DNA from: Motilibacter deserti
GTDB lineage: Bacteria > Actinomycetota > Actinomycetes > Motilibacterales > Motilibacteraceae
Assembly: GCF_011250635.1 (NCBI RefSeq)
Contig: NZ_JAANNP010000001.1
Coordinates: 271,480 to 335,479, forward strand
DNA length: 64,000 nt
Reading direction: 5' to 3'
Of this stretch, positions 5,076 through 53,238 are shown piece by piece. Every line of letters starts with the position of its first letter. Positions within the stretch are counted from its first letter, which is position 1. Made by a program: the position numbers and the translations under genes. Under the pieces are notes generated by a model that saw only the letters and a list, made by a program, of their open reading frames with translations, did not search any database and was not told where the DNA came from.

Positions 5076-6350
5076 GTGGGCGCTGGGGCGACCGCACGGG
5101 CCATCGAGGCGGTGTGGCGCATCGAGTCGGCCCGCCTGATCGCCGGGCTCGCCCGCGTCGTCCGCGACGTCGGGCTCGCCGAGGACCTGGCGCAGGACGC
5201 GCTCGTCGTCGCGCTGGAGAAGTGGCCGGAGTCAGGCGTCCCGGACAACCCGGGCGCCTGGCTGATGGCCACGGCCAAGCGCAAAGGCATCGACCTGCTC
5301 CGGCGCGACGTCATGCTCGACCGCAAGCACGCGGAGATGGCGCACGCGCTGGAGCAGCGCCAGGAGTCCGCACCGGACGACGACGACGTCGACGGCGTCC
5401 AGGACGACCTGCTCCGGCTCGTCTTCACGACCTGCCACCCGGTGCTGTCGACCGAGGCCCGCGTGGCGCTCACGCTGCGCCTGGTCGGCGGGCTGACCAC
5501 GGCCGAGATCGCGCGGGCGTTCCTGGTGCCGGAGCCGACCGTCGGCCAGCGCGTCTCGCGGGCCAAGCGCACCCTGGCGACGGCGAACGTGCCGTTCGAG
5601 GTGCCTACCGGCGCGGAGCTGGCGCCCCGGCTTGCCTCGGTGCTCGACGTTGTCTACCTGGTCTTCAACGAGGGCTACTCCGCGACCGCGGGCGAGGACT
5701 GGATGCGGCCCGCGCTCTGCGAGGACGCGCTGCGCCTCGGGCGCGTCCTCGCGCAGCTGATGCCTCGTGAGCCCGAGGTGCACGGGCTGGTCGCGCTGAT
5801 GGAGGTGTCGGCGTCCCGCACCCACGCGCGGACGGCGCCGGACGGCTCGCCGGTGCTGCTGGCCGACCAGGACCGGTCCCGCTGGGACCCGATGCTCGTA
5901 CGCCGCGGCCTGGCCGCGCTCGAACGCGCCGAGCAGCTCGGCGGGGCGCTCGGGCCGTACGCGCTGCAGGCGGGTATCGCGGCGTGCCACGCCCGGGCGC
6001 GGACCGCCGAGGAGACCGACTGGGAGCGGATCGTCGCCTTCTACGACGCGCTCGCCCAGCTCGCCCCCTCGCCCGTCGTCGAGCTCAACCGGGCGGTGGC
6101 GGTGTCCATGGCGTACGGCCCGGCCGAGGGGCTCGCCCTCGTCGACCAGCTGATCGACGCCCCTGCGCTGCGCGGCTACCACCTGCTCCCGGCGGCACGG
6201 GCCGACCTGCTGGCCAAGCTCGGCCGCACCGACGAGGCGCAGGAGGATCTGGCCCGGGCCGCGTCGCTCACCCGCAACGTCCGCGAGCGCACCCTGCTGC
6301 TCGAGCGCGCCCGTCGCCTCGCCGGCCCGCACGGCTCGGCCCTGGGGTGA
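5076..6350 (+). CDS. ECF42-type RNA polymerase sigma factor with C-terminal helical (TPR-like) domain
   Basis: A 424-residue sigma-70 family protein. Sigma region 2 (residues 12-80) contains R-D-V-G-L-A-E-D-L-A-Q-D-A and N-P-G-A-W-L-M-A-T-A-K-R. Region 4 (about 118-170) contains the helix-turn-helix L-T-T-A-E-I-A-R-A-F. The remaining ~240 residues are helical with F-N-E-G-Y-S-A and E-L-N-R-A-V-A-V-S-M motifs, matching the ECF42 extension. No anti-sigma gene is adjacent; in this group the extension is thought to control activity in cis. The GTG start at 5076 lies 12 bp after the DGPF gene with only a weak SD, so co-transcription is likely. Confidence 0.9.
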   Translation: MGAGATARAIEAVWRIESARLIAGLARVVRDVGLAEDLAQDALVVALEKWPESGVPDNPGAWLMATAKRKGIDLLRRDVMLDRKHAEMAHALEQRQESAPDDDDVDGVQDDLLRLVFTTCHPVLSTEARVALTLRLVGGLTTAEIARAFLVPEPTVGQRVSRAKRTLATANVPFEVPTGAELAPRLASVLDVVYLVFNEGYSATAGEDWMRPALCEDALRLGRVLAQLMPREPEVHGLVALMEVSASRTHARTAPDGSPVLLADQDRSRWDPMLVRRGLAALERAEQLGGALGPYALQAGIAACHARARTAEETDWERIVAFYDALAQLAPSPVVELNRAVAVSMAYGPAEGLALVDQLIDAPALRGYHLLPAARADLLAKLGRTDEAQEDLARAASLTRNVRERTLLLERARRLAGPHGSALG

Positions 6351-6368
6351 GGCGCGGCCCGTGGCGGT

Positions 6369-7316
6369 TCAGCCAGGCAGCACCGGGTCCGGGGTACGCG
6401 CCGGCTCGGGCGAGCGCTCAGCGGGGGCCGGCCGCGCCGACAGCGTCGACCCGACGCTCGCCGCGACGACGACCGCGACGGCCACCGCCTCCAGCGGCCG
6501 CATCCCCTGCGACAGCAGCACCCAGCCGGCGAGGACAGCGACGACCGGCTCGAGGCTGAGCAGCACTCCGAACAGGCTCTTCGGCAGCCGGCGCAGCGCG
6601 GCGAGCTCGAGCGAGTACGGGATCACCGAGGCGAGCAGGCCGGTGCCGGCGGCGAGCAGCAGCAGGTCCGGCTGCGTGAAGGCCGCGGACGCACCGTGCG
6701 CGCCGGCGGGCAGCAGCACCAGGGCGCCGATCGCGACGGCGACGGCGAGCCCGCCGTGGCCCGGGACGGCGGCCCCCACTCGGGCGCTCGCCAGGATGTA
6801 GCCGGCCCAGAAGACGGCGGCGACGAGCACGAGGACGACGCCGACGGGGTCGAGCCCCTCCCCGTCCAGGCCCTCGCTGCCCGCCCAGAGCAGCACGACG
6901 CCGATGCCGGCGAGCAGCACCCACGCCAGGTCGCGGGCGCGGTGCGTGAGCACCGCCGCGAGCGCGAGCGGGCCGAGGAACTCGATCGTCACCGCGGTGC
7001 CGAGCGGGATGCGGTCGATCGCCGCGTAGAAGAAGCCGTTCATCCCGGCCATGGAGACGCCGAGCACCGCGATGGCCCGCCACTGCCGGGCCTCCCACTT
7101 GCGCACCCGGGGGCGGACCGCGACGAGCAGGATCAGGGCGGCGAGCCCGAGCCGGAGCAGCGTCGCCCCGGTGCTGCCGGTGGAGTCGAAAAGGTGGGCG
7201 GCCAGCGCGGCGCCGAGCTGCAGCGACGAGCACGACGCGAGCACCATGGCCACGGCGGTGCCGCTCGTCCAGTTCCGGGACGGGGCAGGCACGGGCAGGC
7301 GCAGCGAGTCGTTCAC
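6369..7316 (-). CDS. EamA-family (DMT superfamily) transporter, RhtA-like exporter
   Basis: A 315-residue inner-membrane protein with about ten hydrophobic helices in two EamA repeats. Visible family segments include L-R-L-G-L-A-A-L-I-L-L, G-M-N-G-F-F-Y-A-A-I-D-R-I-P-L-G and I-P-Y-S-L-E-L-A-A-L-R-R-L-P. These resemble the threonine/homoserine exporter RhtA. GTG is chosen as start because a well-formed promoter ends 6 nt upstream, which implies a leaderless message. It is divergent from a LysR regulator that probably controls it. The substrate (amino acid or related metabolite) is inferred only from the family. Confidence 0.87.
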   Translation of the reverse strand: MNDSLRLPVPAPSRNWTSGTAVAMVLASCSSLQLGAALAAHLFDSTGSTGATLLRLGLAALILLVAVRPRVRKWEARQWRAIAVLGVSMAGMNGFFYAAIDRIPLGTAVTIEFLGPLALAAVLTHRARDLAWVLLAGIGVVLLWAGSEGLDGEGLDPVGVVLVLVAAVFWAGYILASARVGAAVPGHGGLAVAVAIGALVLLPAGAHGASAAFTQPDLLLLAAGTGLLASVIPYSLELAALRRLPKSLFGVLLSLEPVVAVLAGWVLLSQGMRPLEAVAVAVVVAASVGSTLSARPAPAERSPEPARTPDPVLPG

Positions 7317-7322
7317 CCTTCA

Positions 7323-7351
7323 ACTATCGGGAGCATCGAAGCTCCAGTCCA
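7323..7351 (-). promoter_or_regulatory. Promoter of the EamA gene with operator palindrome in the spacer
   Basis: On the minus strand, TGGACT (7351-7346) and GATAGT (7328-7323) are separated by 17 nt and resemble -35 and -10 boxes. The spacer holds an inverted repeat, GGAGC-N6-GCTCC (7330-7345). Only 6 nt separate the -10 from the GTG start. Binding in the spacer would block transcription; the divergent LysR protein is the obvious candidate. Confidence 0.55.
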
Positions 7352-7370
7352 GCGAATTGTTGTGAGGGAT

Positions 7371-7393
7371 ACTCGTCAGCAGAACTGACGAGT
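7371..7393 (+). promoter_or_regulatory. Perfect 9-bp inverted repeat upstream of the LysR gene
   Basis: ACTCGTCAG-N5-CTGACGAGT is a perfect inverted repeat that ends directly before the GGAGG ribosome-binding site (7394-7398) of the LysR gene. It is likely the LysR binding site for autoregulation, or an mRNA hairpin next to the SD. Confidence 0.6.
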
Positions 7394-7402
7394 GGAGGCT
7401 GC

Positions 7403-8344
7403 GTGCTCGACGTCCAACGGCTCCGGCTGCTGCGCGAGCTCGAGCGGCGGGGCACGCTGGCGGAGGTCGCGCGCGCCCTGGCGTACAGCCCCTCCGCGGT
7501 CTCCCAGCAGCTCGCGCAGCTCGAGGCCGAGGCGGGCGTGCGCCTCCTCGACCGCGTGGGGCGCGGAGTGCGCCTCACCGAGCAGGCCCGCGTCCTCACC
7601 CGGCACGCGGACGTCATCCTGGAACGGCTCGAGCTCGCCGAGGCCGAGCTCGCCGCGTCGCTCACGCAGGTGAGCGGAACGCTCCGGGTCGCGTCCTTCC
7701 AGACCGTCCTGCTCGCCCTCGTGCCCGCGACGCTGTCCCGGCTCGCACAGCTGCACCCCGGGCTGCGCGTGCAGATCGCGCAGCGCGAGGCCGAGCCGGC
7801 GTTTGCCGGCCTGCTCGCGCACGACTTCGACGTCGTGCTGGGCGAGGAGTACCCCGGCCTGCCGGAGCCGCTGCGCGCCGGGGTCGACGAGGAGGACCTC
7901 GCGCACGACGAGCTGCGGCTGGCCGTCCCGCCGACCGGTCCGCTCAGCACCGTCGACGGGCTTGCCGACCTCGCCGGGGCGCCCTGGGTGCTCGACCCCG
8001 AGCGCGCCGCGCCCGGCCAGTGGGTGCGCAGGCTCTGCCGCAGCGCGGGCTTCGAGCCCGACGTCCGCTTCGACAGCCTCGACCTGCTGCTCCACGTCCA
8101 CCTCGTCGAGACCGGGCACGCCGTCGCGGTGCTGCCGGACCTGCTGTGGGCCGAGCGCGAGCCCCGGCTGCGCCTGCTGGAGCTGCCCCGGCGCCCGCAC
8201 CGCCGGCTGTTCACCGGCGCCCGGCGCGGGAGCGCGGGCCACCCGGCCGTACGCGCCTTCCGCACCGCGCTGCGCGAAGCGCTCGAGGCGACCCGGCCCT
8301 CGTCGCGCCCCGACGCTGCGGCAGGGCACATCGGGCCGTCGTGA
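7403..8344 (+). CDS. LysR-family transcriptional regulator
   Basis: A 313-residue LTTR. The N-terminal winged helix-turn-helix (residues 1-60) starts MLDVQRLRLLRELERRGTL and contains Y-S-P-S-A-V-S-Q-Q-L-A-Q-L-E, typical of the family. It is followed by the linker helix and a periplasmic-binding-like effector domain (about 90-300). The GTG start has GGAGG 4 nt upstream. Divergent orientation to the EamA exporter, with two palindromes in the 86-bp gap, suggests it controls that exporter in response to an intracellular ligand, as LysE/LysG-type pairs do. The ligand is unknown. Confidence 0.9.
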   Translation: MLDVQRLRLLRELERRGTLAEVARALAYSPSAVSQQLAQLEAEAGVRLLDRVGRGVRLTEQARVLTRHADVILERLELAEAELAASLTQVSGTLRVASFQTVLLALVPATLSRLAQLHPGLRVQIAQREAEPAFAGLLAHDFDVVLGEEYPGLPEPLRAGVDEEDLAHDELRLAVPPTGPLSTVDGLADLAGAPWVLDPERAAPGQWVRRLCRSAGFEPDVRFDSLDLLLHVHLVETGHAVAVLPDLLWAEREPRLRLLELPRRPHRRLFTGARRGSAGHPAVRAFRTALREALEATRPSSRPDAAAGHIGPS

Positions 8345-47548: not shown

Positions 47549-49153
47549 ATGCAGGAGCCGCTCGTCTCGCTGTTCCTCCTCTCGTCCGTGGTGTCGGCGG
47601 GCACCGCGCTGCTCGCGTGGCGCCACCGCCGTTCGAGCCCGGCGGCCACTGCCCTCGCCGTGGCGATGCTCGGCCTCGCGTGGTGGTCGGGGTCCCAGGC
47701 CGTGCTGCACAGTGCACTGCCCTACGCCGTGCTGCGCACCGCGCTGGCCCTGGTCTTCGTCGGCGTCGGCGGGGCGGTCGCCGGGTTCTACTGCCTGGGC
47801 CGGGTGGTCGCGGCGCCCGACTGGCGCCCCACCCGGCGCCTGGCCGCACTCCTCTGCCTCGAGCCGGCGTGCACGGTGGCACTTGGCTTCCTGAACCCTG
47901 GTTCGCTGTTCTACCGTTCCGTCGCTGCAGTGGGCGACCCGCCTGTGATCGAGCGCGAGATCGGCCCGCTCTACCTGGCGCACGCGGCCTTCTGCTACGC
48001 ACTGCTGGTCTGGCCCGTCGTCGCGCTCGTACGCCACCGCCGCCAGCTGCCGGCCGCGTACCGGCCGCAGGTGACGTCGCTCCTCCTGGCGAGCACTATC
48101 CCCATGGCCGTCGAGCTTCCCGCCGTGCTCCTCGGCTTCCCCGACGACTACACCCCGGTCGTGTTCGTGCTCAGCGGCCTGGCCGCCAGTTGGGCCGTGT
48201 TCCGGCAGGGGCTGCTGCGCCTGGTCCCGGTAGCGCGCGACCTCGTCGTCGACACGGTCACCGACGCGATCCTCGTGATCGACCCGCTGGGGCGGGTGCT
48301 GGACATCAACGCCTCGGGGCTCGCCCTGCTGCGCCGGCTGCGGCCCTCGACGCCGGACCGGTTGATCGGCCTGCCTGCCGTCGAGCTCATCGGGCCCACG
48401 GTCGTCGGCGAGCTGGACAGGGGCCAGCTGCGCGACGTCGTCGAAGCCGCTCCGGGCTGCTACCTCGACTTCCGGATCTCACTGCTGCACGACGCCCGTG
48501 GCCGCCAGCTCGGCCGGGTCGTGGTCGCCCGCGACGTGTCCGAGCAGCACGCCCAGCAGCTCGCGCTGGAGGCCGCGAACGCCTCGCTCGAAGCGCAGCT
48601 GGCCGAGATCGACCGGCTGCGCGCCCGGCTCGCCGAGGAGGCCACGCGGGACTCGCTGACGGGCCTGCACAACCGCCGGTACCTCGTGCGCGCACTGGAC
48701 CGTGCCCTGTCGGCCGGCCGGGCGGCCGGGCGGCCGGTAGCCGTGGTGCTCATCGACGTCGACCACTTCAAGCGCGTCAACGACACCTACGGCCACGGCG
48801 CCGGCGACCGTGCGCTGAAGGCGGTCGCGCGGATCCTGCAGAGCTCGCTGCGCCGCGGGGAGACGCTCGCACGCTACGGCGGGGAGGAGTTCGTGCTCGT
48901 GATCCCGGGGGCGACGCTCGACACGGCGGTCGCGCGGGCAGAAGCCCTGCGGGGTGCGTGCGCTGCCCAGCCGTTGCGTACGCGCGGGGACGGGGCCGTC
49001 CGGGTGACGCTCAGCGCCGGGGTCGCCGTGACGGACGGCTCGGACGGGCGGACGGCCTCGACGCTTCTCGACAGCGCCGACACGGCGCTCTACGCCGCCA
49101 AGGCCGAAGGACGCGACCGCGTGATCGCCGAGCGGCTCACAGCTCCTCGATGA
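47549..49153 (+). CDS. Membrane diguanylate cyclase (7TM sensor-PAS-GGDEF)
   Basis: A 534-residue membrane protein. Residues 1-225 form about seven hydrophobic helices, like the N-terminal 7TM sensor of some histidine kinases. Residues ~228-345 are a PAS domain (D-A-I-L-V-I-D-P-L-G-R-V). A short coiled coil (A-N-A-S-L-E-A-Q-L-A-E-I) leads to a GGDEF domain with an intact G-G-E-E-F. The position of the inhibitory site reads R-R-G-E, not RxxD, so product inhibition may be lost. GAAGGGGG lies upstream of the ATG. The last 17 bp overlap the convergent DUF305 gene. Confidence 0.9.
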   Translation: MQEPLVSLFLLSSVVSAGTALLAWRHRRSSPAATALAVAMLGLAWWSGSQAVLHSALPYAVLRTALALVFVGVGGAVAGFYCLGRVVAAPDWRPTRRLAALLCLEPACTVALGFLNPGSLFYRSVAAVGDPPVIEREIGPLYLAHAAFCYALLVWPVVALVRHRRQLPAAYRPQVTSLLLASTIPMAVELPAVLLGFPDDYTPVVFVLSGLAASWAVFRQGLLRLVPVARDLVVDTVTDAILVIDPLGRVLDINASGLALLRRLRPSTPDRLIGLPAVELIGPTVVGELDRGQLRDVVEAAPGCYLDFRISLLHDARGRQLGRVVVARDVSEQHAQQLALEAANASLEAQLAEIDRLRARLAEEATRDSLTGLHNRRYLVRALDRALSAGRAAGRPVAVVLIDVDHFKRVNDTYGHGAGDRALKAVARILQSSLRRGETLARYGGEEFVLVIPGATLDTAVARAEALRGACAAQPLRTRGDGAVRVTLSAGVAVTDGSDGRTASTLLDSADTALYAAKAEGRDRVIAERLTAPR

Positions 49154-49814
49154 GTGTGCGCATCGCGTCGTTCTCGCTGGTCTGCTCGGCGAGGATGTGC
49201 TTGGCGATCTTGCGGGTGTAGACGTTCTGCCCCTCGACGACGACCTCCTGCGCCATCTGCAGGGCGCCCAGATGGTGCTCGATCATCTGCCGCAGGAACA
49301 GCTGCGTGGCGGCCGGCGCCTTCGCGGCCTCCAGCCGACGGAGCTGGGCGGGCGTCAGCATCCCGGGCATCGACGCGGCGGCCGACGCTCCGCCCGTCGA
49401 CGTCGCGGCGCGCTCCCCGTGGCCCTCGTGCCGAGCCGTCGCCGGCTCGGACCACGCCTCGAGCCACGCCCCCATGTCCGCGGCCTCGCGCGACTGGTCG
49501 CGAGCGATGTACTCGGCGATCGCGACGACGCGGTCGTGCACGCCCTGCTTCGCAAGCAGCAGCCCGCTCATCCGAACGGCCTGCTGGTGGTGCGGGATCA
49601 TCATCTGCGCGAACGCCACGTCCGCGGAGTTCGGCGGCTTGGGCTGCACCACCGGCTGCGCCGCCGACGCCCCCGAGGAGGACGCCGCTCGCACCGCGGA
49701 CGCCGTGGAGGACACCGCCTGCCCCGACGGCCCGCTTCCTGCGGCGGCGCCGACCGTGCCGACGACGGCCGCGGCCCCGGCGGCGGCCAGCGCAACGAGC
49801 CCGGAAGCTCTCAT
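49137..49814 (-). CDS. Secreted DUF305 protein
   Basis: A 225-residue exported protein with an Ala-rich signal segment (1-27) and a Ser/Ala-rich spacer. A duplicated four-helix DUF305 (ferritin-like) domain follows, carrying His/Met pairs: M-M-I-P-H-H-Q-Q-A-V-R-M and M-I-E-H-H-L-G-A-L-Q-M-A. Some DUF305 proteins bind copper (for example cyanobacterial CopM). Here it lies 99 bp downstream of a copper amine oxidase-like gene on the same strand, so a copper-handling role is plausible but unproven. A hairpin between the two genes may reduce co-transcription. Confidence 0.88.
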   Translation of the reverse strand: MRASGLVALAAAGAAAVVGTVGAAAGSGPSGQAVSSTASAVRAASSSGASAAQPVVQPKPPNSADVAFAQMMIPHHQQAVRMSGLLLAKQGVHDRVVAIAEYIARDQSREAADMGAWLEAWSEPATARHEGHGERAATSTGGASAAASMPGMLTPAQLRRLEAAKAPAATQLFLRQMIEHHLGALQMAQEVVVEGQNVYTRKIAKHILAEQTSENDAMRTLIEEL

Positions 49815-49913: not shown

Positions 49914-51197
49914 TCAGGACGTGGGCCGGCCCACGCGGCCGTTCACGTAGCGCCGGGTGTCCGGCGTGAGCATGTTCTGCGCGGTGAAGTCGCGCGGCAC
50001 CAGGGTGAAGCCCTGCCAGTGGAACGGCATCGGGCTCTGGTCCTCGTCCCGCGGGATGTGGTGGAAGCCCACCCGCACCCACATCACCGGGTCGGTCATC
50101 GACTCGCCGTTGACGTACTCCGGCAGCGACGTCGCCGTGCACTCCGGGTCCTGGTTGAAGCTGGCGAACTTCTCACACGCACGGTATTGCGTGAAAGACA
50201 CGTCAGGTGCGGTCTCCGGGTGCACCTCGTAGGCGTCGCTCGCACCGAGCTCGAGCTCGTACGACCGCTTGTGCCCGTCCTTGTTCAGCGTCGGGCTGAC
50301 GACCCGCCACCAACGCCGGTTGGCGGTGTTGAACGAGCCCTCGACCGGGATGTCGGTCTTGGTGGTCCGAAGGATTGCCGCCCGCCGGCCGACCTCGCCG
50401 GTGGGGGCGGTGTCGTACTGCTCCACCGCCTCGTTGCCGGCACCGCCGATGTTCCAGTTGATCTTCCAGAACGCCGAGTGGTAGTGGTTCGTCGAGAAGT
50501 CGGCGAGGTTCGTGCCGATCGGCCACCCGTAGTCCGCGGTCGTGTAGTCGGAGGGCGCGAGGTCACCGGTGGCGCCGAGCGCGGTGCTGATCGTGCCGTC
50601 GTCGGCGAACCGCCACTCGGTGACGTACTCGTACCAGTCGATCTTCGAGATGGTGCGCAGCACGAGGTCGTGGCCCTGCTTGGTGTAGAGCGGGCCGGTG
50701 CCGGTCGTGTTCCCCGTCTTCGCCCGATAGGCGAAGCCCGTTTCCTCCTCCGAGACGCAGAGGACGCTCTTGGTGTCCTGCCCCGTGCCGAGCCACTGGC
50801 CGTACACCTTGCCGCCGGGGCACTCCTCCTTCGTCATCGGCTGCATGTAGCGGTCGCCGAAGCCGTACGACGTGATGTCGTTCCACTCGTTGGCGCCGGA
50901 GTCGTAGGGGACGTTCAGCTGGGCGAGGGCGGCGGAGTCGATGACGGTCGTCGGCACGGTCTCGCCCGGGGCCTGGACCGCGATCTTCTCCAGCACCAGG
51001 CCGGTCTTCGCGTCCACCCGCCAGCACATGGTCCAGCGCGTGCCGTTGTGCAGCTTCTCGTTGACGAGCCCGTTGCTTCCGCAGTATTCGGCCCGGTCCT
51101 TCTCCTTGCTCGCCTGCGCCGTCGAGGCGGTGAGGGTCGAGGCGACGAGTATCACGACCGCCGCCCCGACGCTCGCAGAGCTTCTTCTGCCGAGCAT
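49914..51197 (-). CDS. Copper amine oxidase catalytic-domain protein (stand-alone)
   Basis: A 427-residue secreted protein (signal peptide 1-29) that aligns by eye to the catalytic beta-sandwich of copper amine oxidases. L-N-V-P-Y-D and D107-I-T-S-Y-G-F-G match the catalytic-base region. L-V-L-R-T-I-S, W188-Y189-E-Y, G-T-I-S and G-A-T-G match the topaquinone strand. H238-Y-H240 and H380-I-P-R-D-E-D are the three copper ligands. The usual N before the quinone-forming Tyr is W188. The N-terminal oxidase domains are missing from this protein; the gene 17 bp upstream may supply them. GGAGG precedes the ATG. Amine substrate unknown. Confidence 0.85.
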   Translation of the reverse strand: MLGRRSSASVGAAVVILVASTLTASTAQASKEKDRAEYCGSNGLVNEKLHNGTRWTMCWRVDAKTGLVLEKIAVQAPGETVPTTVIDSAALAQLNVPYDSGANEWNDITSYGFGDRYMQPMTKEECPGGKVYGQWLGTGQDTKSVLCVSEEETGFAYRAKTGNTTGTGPLYTKQGHDLVLRTISKIDWYEYVTEWRFADDGTISTALGATGDLAPSDYTTADYGWPIGTNLADFSTNHYHSAFWKINWNIGGAGNEAVEQYDTAPTGEVGRRAAILRTTKTDIPVEGSFNTANRRWWRVVSPTLNKDGHKRSYELELGASDAYEVHPETAPDVSFTQYRACEKFASFNQDPECTATSLPEYVNGESMTDPVMWVRVGFHHIPRDEDQSPMPFHWQGFTLVPRDFTAQNMLTPDTRRYVNGRVGRPTS

Positions 51198-51214
51198 TCG
51201 CGAGGTCCTCCGGT

Positions 51215-52081
51215 TCACTTGAGCTGAGCGACGGTCTTGGTGGACAGGTCGACGACGTAGCCGGTGATGTCGATGAACGGCCCGTCGTCCGGCAGCTGCG
51301 TGATGAACTGCAGGCAGCGGTGCTCGCCGCACTCCTCGGCGCCGACGTCGGCGGGGCCGGCGACGTACGTCATGCCGTTGGTGACGACCTGGTCCGGGGA
51401 CGTGAGCTCGGCCCCGGCGAGCTTGCGGAACCCCTCCTTGAACTCCGCGCTCTCGGGCGCGGCCAGGAAGAGCGCGAAGGCGGTGGCGGTCTCGGTCGGC
51501 GACGCCGGCGGCTGCATGCCCGGCGCCGCCGCCGTCCGCTCCACCTGTCCGGTGGTGAGGTTGACGACGCGCTTGACGAGGGTGTCGTCGGCGTAGTTGT
51601 AGAAGTAGACGGCCGCGCGCCGCGGTGCGTCCTTGCCGGCCTCCCCGGGCAGCGGGTCCTCCAGCTCGAAGGACAGGTACTCCGGCCCGGGCTCGCCCGA
51701 CACGTCCCGCCCGGCCGCGACGAACGCCGGGTCGAGCGCGAGCTGCCGGGCCGTCGCGGCCTCGTCGATCGTCACGGGGTCGCGGCCCGTGCCGGCCCCG
51801 CGCGGCGCGGGTGTCCCGGGCACGGCCTCGACGCTGGCACCTGCCGCCCCGCTCGCTGCGCTCGGAGCGGCCGCGTCCACGTCGGCCGAGCCGGCAGGGG
51901 TGGGCACGAGCGTCGAGCTGTTCGCGCCGAGCGGGATCGCGATCGCGAAGATCACTCCGACCGCGCCGACCACCGCGCTCCCGCGGGCGAGCAACGTACG
52001 GGCGGGAAGGCCCGCGCCCGGCGTCCTCCGTCCGCGTGGCGGGCCTCCGCCCGCCGGCCCCGCCTCCTTCTCGGTCTCCAC
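51215..52081 (-). CDS. Membrane-anchored protein resembling the N-terminal (N3-like) domain of copper amine oxidases
   Basis: A 288-residue protein. A cytoplasmic start is followed by one hydrophobic segment (about 30-52), an Ala/Pro-rich linker and a globular domain from about 100. That domain contains A-A-V-Y-F-Y-N-Y, V-K-R-V-V-N-L-T-T-G-Q-V-E and G-M-Q-P-P-A-S-P-T-E, the pattern of the alpha/beta domain before the catalytic domain in bacterial amine oxidases. One Cys pair is visible (E-E-C-G-E-H-R-C). GTG has AGGAGG 4 nt upstream. It is followed 17 bp later by the catalytic-domain gene, so the two probably act together. Assignment rests on weak similarity plus context. Confidence 0.65.
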   Translation of the reverse strand: METEKEAGPAGGGPPRGRRTPGAGLPARTLLARGSAVVGAVGVIFAIAIPLGANSSTLVPTPAGSADVDAAAPSAASGAAGASVEAVPGTPAPRGAGTGRDPVTIDEAATARQLALDPAFVAAGRDVSGEPGPEYLSFELEDPLPGEAGKDAPRRAAVYFYNYADDTLVKRVVNLTTGQVERTAAAPGMQPPASPTETATAFALFLAAPESAEFKEGFRKLAGAELTSPDQVVTNGMTYVAGPADVGAEECGEHRCLQFITQLPDDGPFIDITGYVVDLSTKTVAQLK

Positions 52082-52443: not shown

Positions 52444-53238
52444 ATGACGCCTCACACCAACGGGACGACGCACGAGCCCGCCCGCACCGGTGCCCAGGGC
52501 GGCCTCCCCGGGCGCCAGTCCCACGCCGTGCGCAACGCGTTCGCGCTGCTGGAGGAGGTCGCCCGGCTCGGGCCCGGAGTGACGGCCAAGCAGGTCGGCG
52601 CCGGTCTCAGCCTCTCCCCCGCCACGACGTACCGACTGCTGAACCTGCTCGTCGCGCTGCAGTACCTCGAGCGGCAGCCGGGCGCGCGCGGGTTCACGCT
52701 CGGCCACAAGGTCGCCCAGCTGGCCGGGTTCGTCGCCCTCGTGCACGTGCCCGTCGCCGCGCGGCGGCTGCTGGAGGACCTGCGCTCCCGGGTGCGCATG
52801 GGCGTGCACCTGGCGTCGTACGCCGGCGGCGCGCCCGCGCTGGTCGACCCCGACCCGACCCAGCCGCTGCCACCGTCGGAGGCGATCTCCCGACACCTGC
52901 ACGCCTCGGCCTTCGGCAAGCTGCTGCTCGCCGAGTCGGGGGACTGGCGTCGCGCCGTCGGCGAGGGCCCGCTGGACCGGCTGACGCCGCGGACGCTCGT
53001 CTCGCCGCCGGACCTCGACGCGGAGCTGGCCGCGGTGGCGCGCGCCGACATGGCCCACCAGCTGGGCGAGCTGCGCTCGATGCGGGCGTGCGTCGCCCTG
53101 CCGGTGCGCAGCGCGGCCGGGCAGCTCGTGGCCGCCGTGGCGCTGACGGGCGTGCCCGAGCAGATCCGCTCGCTCGACCAGCGGCACCTGGCGTCCACCG
53201 CGCGGACGGCCCGCGAGCTGGCGCCCCTGCTGACCTGA
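52444..53238 (+). CDS. IclR-family transcriptional regulator
   Basis: A 264-residue regulator. The N-terminal winged helix (about 27-85) has V-T-A-K-Q-V-G-A-G-L-S-L-S-P-A-T-T-Y-R-L-L-N-L-L. The IclR effector domain (about 100-260) has H-A-S-A-F-G-K-L-L-L-A and closing C-V-A-L-P-V-R and V-A-A-V-A-L-T-G. The ATG has GGAGGA 3 nt upstream. It is divergent from the copper amine oxidase-like pair and is the most likely regulator of that operon, with an amine-derived acid as possible ligand (inference). Confidence 0.9.
   Translation: MTPHTNGTTHEPARTGAQGGLPGRQSHAVRNAFALLEEVARLGPGVTAKQVGAGLSLSPATTYRLLNLLVALQYLERQPGARGFTLGHKVAQLAGFVALVHVPVAARRLLEDLRSRVRMGVHLASYAGGAPALVDPDPTQPLPPSEAISRHLHASAFGKLLLAESGDWRRAVGEGPLDRLTPRTLVSPPDLDAELAAVARADMAHQLGELRSMRACVALPVRSAAGQLVAAVALTGVPEQIRSLDQRHLASTARTARELAPLLT

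Follow-up and report, generated by a model that had tools for sequence, protein, structure and literature searches.

Copper amine oxidase domains divided between two adjacent genes in Motilibacter deserti and other actinobacteria

Introduction

In every structurally characterised case, a copper amine oxidase is a single-chain homodimer of 70-80 kDa (PMC3382800). A locus of the actinobacterium Motilibacter deserti raises the question of whether such an enzyme can also be built from two gene products, one carrying the N-terminal domains D2 and D3 and the other the catalytic domain D4. The locus lies in a stretch of 64,000 nucleotides (assembly GCF_011250635.1, contig NZ_JAANNP010000001.1, positions 271,480 to 335,479), which as a whole is called the window here. 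An earlier note, made from the letters alone, had read two neighbouring open reading frames (ORFs) as a split copper amine oxidase, consisting of a secreted 427-residue catalytic domain with the three copper histidines and a membrane-anchored 288-residue protein resembling an N3-like domain. Both ORFs were recovered on the same strand and at the same positions, 17 bp apart:

51215-52081, (-): P0002, predicted D2+D3 subunit, 288 aa; GTG start at 52081, stop ends at 51215
51198-51214, (-): 17-bp gap between the P0002 and P0001 genes, with a GGAGG stretch resembling a ribosome-binding site (RBS) ahead of the D4 ATG
49914-51197, (-): P0001, D4 catalytic subunit, 427 aa; ATG start at 51197, stop ends at 49914

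Purine-rich, Shine-Dalgarno-like stretches (GGAGG/GAGGAGG) precede both starts, and a promoter and terminator scan at the locus found none. P0001 is the sole match to PF01179 in the whole genome (4.99 Mb, 269 contigs), and another Motilibacter species encodes the same pair, with identities of 93% and 72-76%. Our analysis makes it likely that the two proteins constitute one secreted two-subunit copper amine oxidase, with its chain divided at the D3/D4 linker.

Results

The catalytic subunit

The PF01179 match spans residues 54-409 of P0001 and is well supported by a score of 131.7 bits (cut-off 27; E=4.2e-38). A search of PDB sequences with P0001 led to copper amine oxidases, as did a Foldseek search (E about 1e-22) with its AlphaFold2 (AF2) model (predicted local distance difference test score, pLDDT, 80; predicted template modelling score, pTM, 0.82). 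Residues 8-26 are hydrophobic and signal-peptide-like, and the mature catalytic domain is predicted to begin at about residue 39. In an alignment of 128 rows, the copper ligands H238 and H240 (HxH) and the distant H380 are present in every full row, and the precursor tyrosine of the topaquinone (TPQ) cofactor, Y189, is conserved together with the acidic residue that follows it. Furthermore, the catalytic base D107, within the motif D-x-x-x-Y-G-x-G, and the active-site tyrosine Y98 (VPY) are invariant across the split family, and C126/C147 form a conserved cysteine pair. Judged by these residues, the active site of P0001 looks complete save for the position before the TPQ tyrosine, and the secreted-type catalytic domain with three copper histidines described in the earlier note was confirmed. 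The active-site tyrosine and the base lie 9 residues apart (Y98 to D107), compared to a spacing of 14 inferred from the published numbering of the yeast enzyme HPAO (Tyr305/Asp319; PMC3382800). The base of single-chain enzymes was misaligned by hmmalign, with a 5-residue gap, and was located through the motif D-x-x-x-[WY]-G-x-G instead.

The partner subunit

P0002 begins with a basic, proline-rich segment (residues 1-34) and a hydrophobic segment (35-53), which are followed by a low-complexity linker (about 55-95) and the D2+D3 region (about 97-288). No Pfam family matched the protein, and neither single-sequence nor profile searches against PDB sequences found anything. Its identity was settled by fold comparison and by matches inside full-length genomic ORFs. 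The AF2 model, with pLDDT values above 90 over most of residues 100-288, returned copper amine oxidases for all 50 of the 50 best listed PDB matches in Foldseek (best E=3.3e-7; about 200 aligned columns), so that the unrelated fold by which the earlier note would have been refuted was not observed. Moreover, in a scan of 395 genomes, weak matches of the P0002 profile (E 1e-11 to 1e-5) fell inside the N-terminal part of complete single-chain amine oxidase ORFs (in genomes G298, G211, G128, G353, G383 and others), five of which were confirmed on re-search. On sequence and model grounds, P0002 is thus assigned to D2+D3 of a copper amine oxidase. The N3-like domain proposed previously was therefore correct as to the amine oxidase N-terminal fold and too narrow in extent, both D2 and D3 being present.

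The two proteins also occupy complementary parts of the single-chain enzyme. On the 648-position model NF008559, P0002 matches positions 60-194 (E=0.0033) and P0001 positions 246-626, so that the matches are collinear and do not overlap. In profile comparisons with single-chain enzymes, the P0002 profile aligned by hhalign to residues 28-141 (96.6%, E=6.4e-10) and the P0001 family to residues 270-652 (99.3%, E=3e-20). As P0001 corresponds to D4 and the P0002 profile falls on D2/D3 of single-chain enzymes, the enzyme appears to be cut at the D3/D4 linker; by inspection, the approximately 60-residue linker that joins D3 and D4 in single-chain enzymes is gone from the split form.

Residues 35-53 of P0002 are predicted to be either a membrane anchor or a cleaved signal peptide. 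The single hydrophobic segment agrees with the membrane anchoring suggested in the earlier note, while a cleaved signal peptide is also compatible, given the A-x-A-like site (GTAGA-DD) of the Streptomyces relatives of P0002.

Conservation of the pair

We examined two samples, both weighted toward close relatives; for the distribution beyond Actinomycetota, the analysis covered plasmid records. In the class sample of 395 genomes, with the short catalytic protein called at more than 250 bits, 39 genomes carry it and 38 of these have the D2/D3 gene directly upstream. Conversely, all 38 strong D2/D3-profile matches in this sample have a catalytic gene immediately downstream, and a lone strong D2/D3 gene was found in none of the 395 genomes. 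The wider scan covered 84,980 species, each represented by a single genome, and found 485 stretches that encode relatives; of the best 80 named loci, the pair is present in 80 of 80. Relatives of the 427-residue protein lacking a partner, which would have refuted the earlier note had they made up most genomes, hence amount to 1 in 39 and 0 in 80, respectively. Such linkage, like the conservation of the pair in the second Motilibacter species, greatly exceeds what chance would give. Together with the collinear model matches and the fold, this conserved linkage supports the reading of the locus as a split copper amine oxidase.

Hosts among the best 80 loci include Micromonosporaceae, Actinomadura, Streptomyces, Microbacterium, Agromyces, Jiangella, Nocardioides and Solirubrobacter. 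In a sample of 396 genomes across the phylum, matches were confined to this class, yet Solirubrobacter, found in the scan of 84,980 species, belongs to another class. Plasmid records yielded only distant relatives of P0001, the best rows having less than 30% identity. Strand and gene order are the same throughout the measured set, with intergenic gaps ranging from -11 to 155 bp.

This distribution also bears on the trivial explanation that a single-chain gene was broken by a frameshift during assembly or annotation. While the adjacency of two parts would be expected from such an artefact, nothing more speaks for it, and we rejected it as exceedingly improbable on the basis of more than 100 independent loci, whose intergenic gaps span -11 to 155 bp and whose genes have their own starts, RBS-like stretches and export signals, and of the loss of the linker.

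In a tree, the split D4 domains group apart from single-chain ones with a support of 100/100, the latter being represented by five similar rows from the class and the root being arbitrary. The identity matrices of the two subunits correlate with r=0.87 (permuted maximum 0.16). Furthermore, Actinoplanes cyaneus and A. regularis each encode two different pairs, the second of which has both its subunits nearer to those of Solirubrobacter than to those of the first. The matched divergence of the subunits and these second pairs indicate that the pairs move and diverge as units.

A few loci deviate from this pattern. Genome G182 encodes an orphan split-type D4 (locus L122, 9550-11013(-)) with a lipobox-like N-terminus (GITAC) and a long tree branch, and no D2/D3 gene is found in this genome. 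In locus L117, a strongly diverged pair of D2/D3-like and D4-like proteins (5443-6543(+) and 6269-7408(+)) has SAYRL in place of WYEY; its genome belongs to the same family (f19) as the Streptomyces-type ones. In Phytohabitans suffuscus (L046), the D4 gene is read in two overlapping frames (5677-6594(+) and 5910-7163(+)) and looks frameshifted, be it by mutation or sequencing error.

A tryptophan ahead of the TPQ tyrosine

The position at which the active site of P0001 deviates is the following:

50625-50636, (-): WYEY codons, residues 188-191; Tyr189 is the TPQ precursor, and Trp188 stands where other enzymes have Asn

The residue before the TPQ tyrosine is Trp in 116 of 127 rows and Asn in 11, with Trp fixed in almost the entire split family. 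In the T-x-x-N-Y motif, the T is replaced as well, mostly by K, R or Q and usually by K or R. In reviewed copper amine oxidases, the Asn is described as "strictly conserved" (PMC3382800). When it is replaced in AGAO (N381A), TPQ forms 180-fold more slowly and kcat drops 160-fold (PMC9491219), and HPAO N404A contains 5-10% TPQ (PMC3382800). With Trp at the position where AGAO N381A is crippled, activity cannot be assumed. Solirubrobacter split pairs and the second pair of Actinoplanes however retain N-Y-E; the split is therefore not bound to the Trp change.

These data raise the alternative that Trp-bearing D4 does not form TPQ and serves some other function as a copper protein, either with a different Tyr/Trp-derived cofactor or as an inactive binding subunit. 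The effect of mutations at this very position in known enzymes (PMC9491219, PMC3382800) and the accompanying loss of the Thr, fixed in nearly all members, speak for it. However, the invariance of the TPQ tyrosine, the three copper histidines, the catalytic Asp and the active-site tyrosine would be unexpected for a dead or unrelated site, and sister clades that share the split keep N-Y-E, so that we consider this alternative doubtful. A related suggestion, to which we give slightly more room and which we still hold to be speculative, is that the split family forms a branch with a function of its own. Trp would then replace the ring-holding Asn, leading to a different quinone or a Tyr/Trp-derived cofactor, or would exert conformational control in a narrowed site, and the separate D2/D3 would act as a removable lid or tether that determines the site of action and the targets of the enzyme, be they small amines or surface polymers.

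A Trp at the Asn position was also seen in single-chain proteins of about 500 residues encoded at L119 (6531-8186(-)), L120 (6729-8561(+)) and L121 (6799-8421(+)). These have GWYRY, HRHH and FRHDQN motifs and weak, below-cut-off matches to PF01179, are without an obvious signal peptide, and represent a third amine-oxidase-like form in genomes that also hold a split pair.

Gene neighbourhood

Within the window, the pair is flanked by two genes that recur elsewhere:

49137-49814, (-): DUF305/CopM-like secreted, putative copper-binding protein, 99 bp past the D4 stop; PF03713, E=6e-41
52444-53238, (+): IclR-family regulator, divergent, with 362 bp between starts; PF01614/PF09339

The DUF305 domain of the former scores 140.5 bits (cut-off 27), and the CopM model NF049983 gives 82.6 bits, below its 90-bit cut-off. 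The protein therefore resembles Synechocystis CopM (PMC4335983) in its full DUF305 domain, its exported N-terminus and its match to the CopM model, and differs from it in a score under the curated cut-off and in its genomic link, which is with an oxidase and not with copper-resistance genes. A DUF305/CopM gene directly downstream of D4 recurs in Micromonosporaceae, Actinomadura, Microbacteriaceae, Jiangella and others, and an IclR gene near the pair in Phytohabitans, Actinomadura, Plantactinospora, Microbacteriaceae and Nocardioides. A conserved block thus accompanies the pair at many loci; its DUF305/CopM and IclR genes are both present in the window, and genes for an amino-acid permease and for a signal peptidase of the S26 family join it in other lineages. 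In Streptomyces loci, none of these four was seen beside the pair.

The S26 signal peptidase gene adjoins the oxidase block in several lineages (L061, 8534-9163; L073, 7405-8622; L074, 7661-8215; L128, 7078-8073), which suggests a dedicated processing enzyme. In Streptomyces-type loci, a conserved gene with HEPN_SAV2148 and DUF5919 follows D4 on the same strand (L012, 2851-4131(+)). D4 proteins of some lineages (such as those of L005, L006, L007 and L016), Microbacteriaceae among them, end in an LxxTG-like motif, a hydrophobic stretch and a basic tail, and thus resemble sortase substrates; the Pfam LPXTG match on such tails reaches 16 bits, below the 20-bit cut-off. A diguanylate cyclase with seven-transmembrane (7TM) and PAS domains (window 47549-49153(+)) lies just past the DUF305 gene, in convergent orientation.

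With regard to the physiological role, the IclR and permease neighbours favour amine catabolism, whereas the sortase-like tails in Microbacteriaceae favour surface cross-linking. In the latter case, the pair would be a surface or matrix enzyme that cross-links envelope proteins or polymers by oxidising amino groups instead of scavenging, with D2/D3 as the tether. Export-type N-termini on both chains, the tails just described and the nearby S26 signal peptidase genes are in line with such a role, as is HyaS (Streptomyces coelicolor SCO7657), a secreted copper amine oxidase that reportedly affects hyphal aggregation (PMC10771440). HyaS resembles P0001 in its description as a secreted, actinobacterial, copper-binding amine oxidase and would be at most a candidate relative; its co-transcribed partner SCO7658 lies downstream (PMC4021200), while the D2/D3 gene of the split pair lies upstream. 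As IclR and the amino-acid permease suit catabolism better and the LPXTG match stays below cut-off, we regard surface cross-linking as possible but not probable.

Discussion

How the two-subunit oxidase may work

Assuming one secreted enzyme of two subunits, P0001 would carry the chemistry and P0002 would supply D2/D3 from a separate chain whose N-terminus is a hydrophobic anchor or signal. In the extracellular space, the D2/D3 domains may dock on D4 at the positions that they take in the single chain and thereby complete the wall of the amine channel, a role proposed because the channel positions 155/156 of the yeast enzyme fall in the N-terminal part. The stoichiometry would probably be (D2D3)2(D4)2. 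Copper is likely to be delivered by the neighbouring DUF305/CopM protein and would drive the conversion of Tyr189 to the quinone cofactor, upon which a primary amine would be turned into aldehyde, NH3 and H2O2 with D107 as the base. The IclR gene probably controls the oxidase as a catabolic or scavenging system.

Alternatively, D2/D3 might serve mainly as a maturation chaperone or copper-loading platform that leaves after D4 folding and cofactor formation in the envelope, so that D4 alone would be the active enzyme. This would accommodate a D2/D3 chain that is separate and has a hydrophobic N-terminal segment to itself, the copper-protein gene within the same block and the orphan D4 of G182, by which D4 can manage without D2/D3 in at least one lineage. 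However, D2/D3 retain the amine oxidase fold, these domains are permanent structural parts of single-chain enzymes, and no chaperone-like domain was found, which renders this explanation quite unlikely.

Several observations weigh against the two-subunit oxidase and should be noted together. The long D3 loop of single-chain enzymes is missing in P0002, the Tyr-to-base spacing of the split D4 departs from that of HPAO, the Asn ahead of the TPQ tyrosine has given way to Trp, and G182 has a D4 without a partner. Furthermore, we infer the heteromer of D2/D3 and D4, and a functional partner without a stable complex would likewise account for the genomic adjacency and the paired divergence.

Relation to known enzymes

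Compared to single-chain Cu/TPQ amine oxidases (EC 1.4.3.21; Arthrobacter AGAO, E. coli TynA and yeast HPAO), the split form preserves the folds of D2, D3 and D4 and their succession, and shares the TPQ tyrosine, the three copper histidines, the base Asp, the active-site tyrosine and the aligned D4 cysteine pair. It differs in being encoded by two genes and exported as two chains, in mostly having Trp for Asn, in a Tyr-to-base spacing that is 5 residues shorter, and in a short D3 loop, the lost D3-D4 linker and a D4 of about 385 residues. The homodimer architecture with D2 to D4 on one chain is thus not what these more than 100 two-gene loci encode, though architecture lies outside the catalytic definition. 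In the open-licence literature, to which the search was confined, no account of a copper amine oxidase encoded by two genes was found. The pair may accordingly represent an undescribed form of a known enzyme.

As the D2/D3 protein is unlabelled, belonging to no Pfam family, hundreds of actinobacterial genomes carry an enzyme subunit that has gone unrecognised. Research into the structure and mechanism of copper amine oxidases has been built on single-chain homodimers; a natural two-chain form would provide a direct route to the roles of D2/D3 in cofactor formation, channel shape and substrate choice. Moreover, the Trp members and their Asn sister clades with the same split would offer a ready-made comparison for the control of TPQ orientation.
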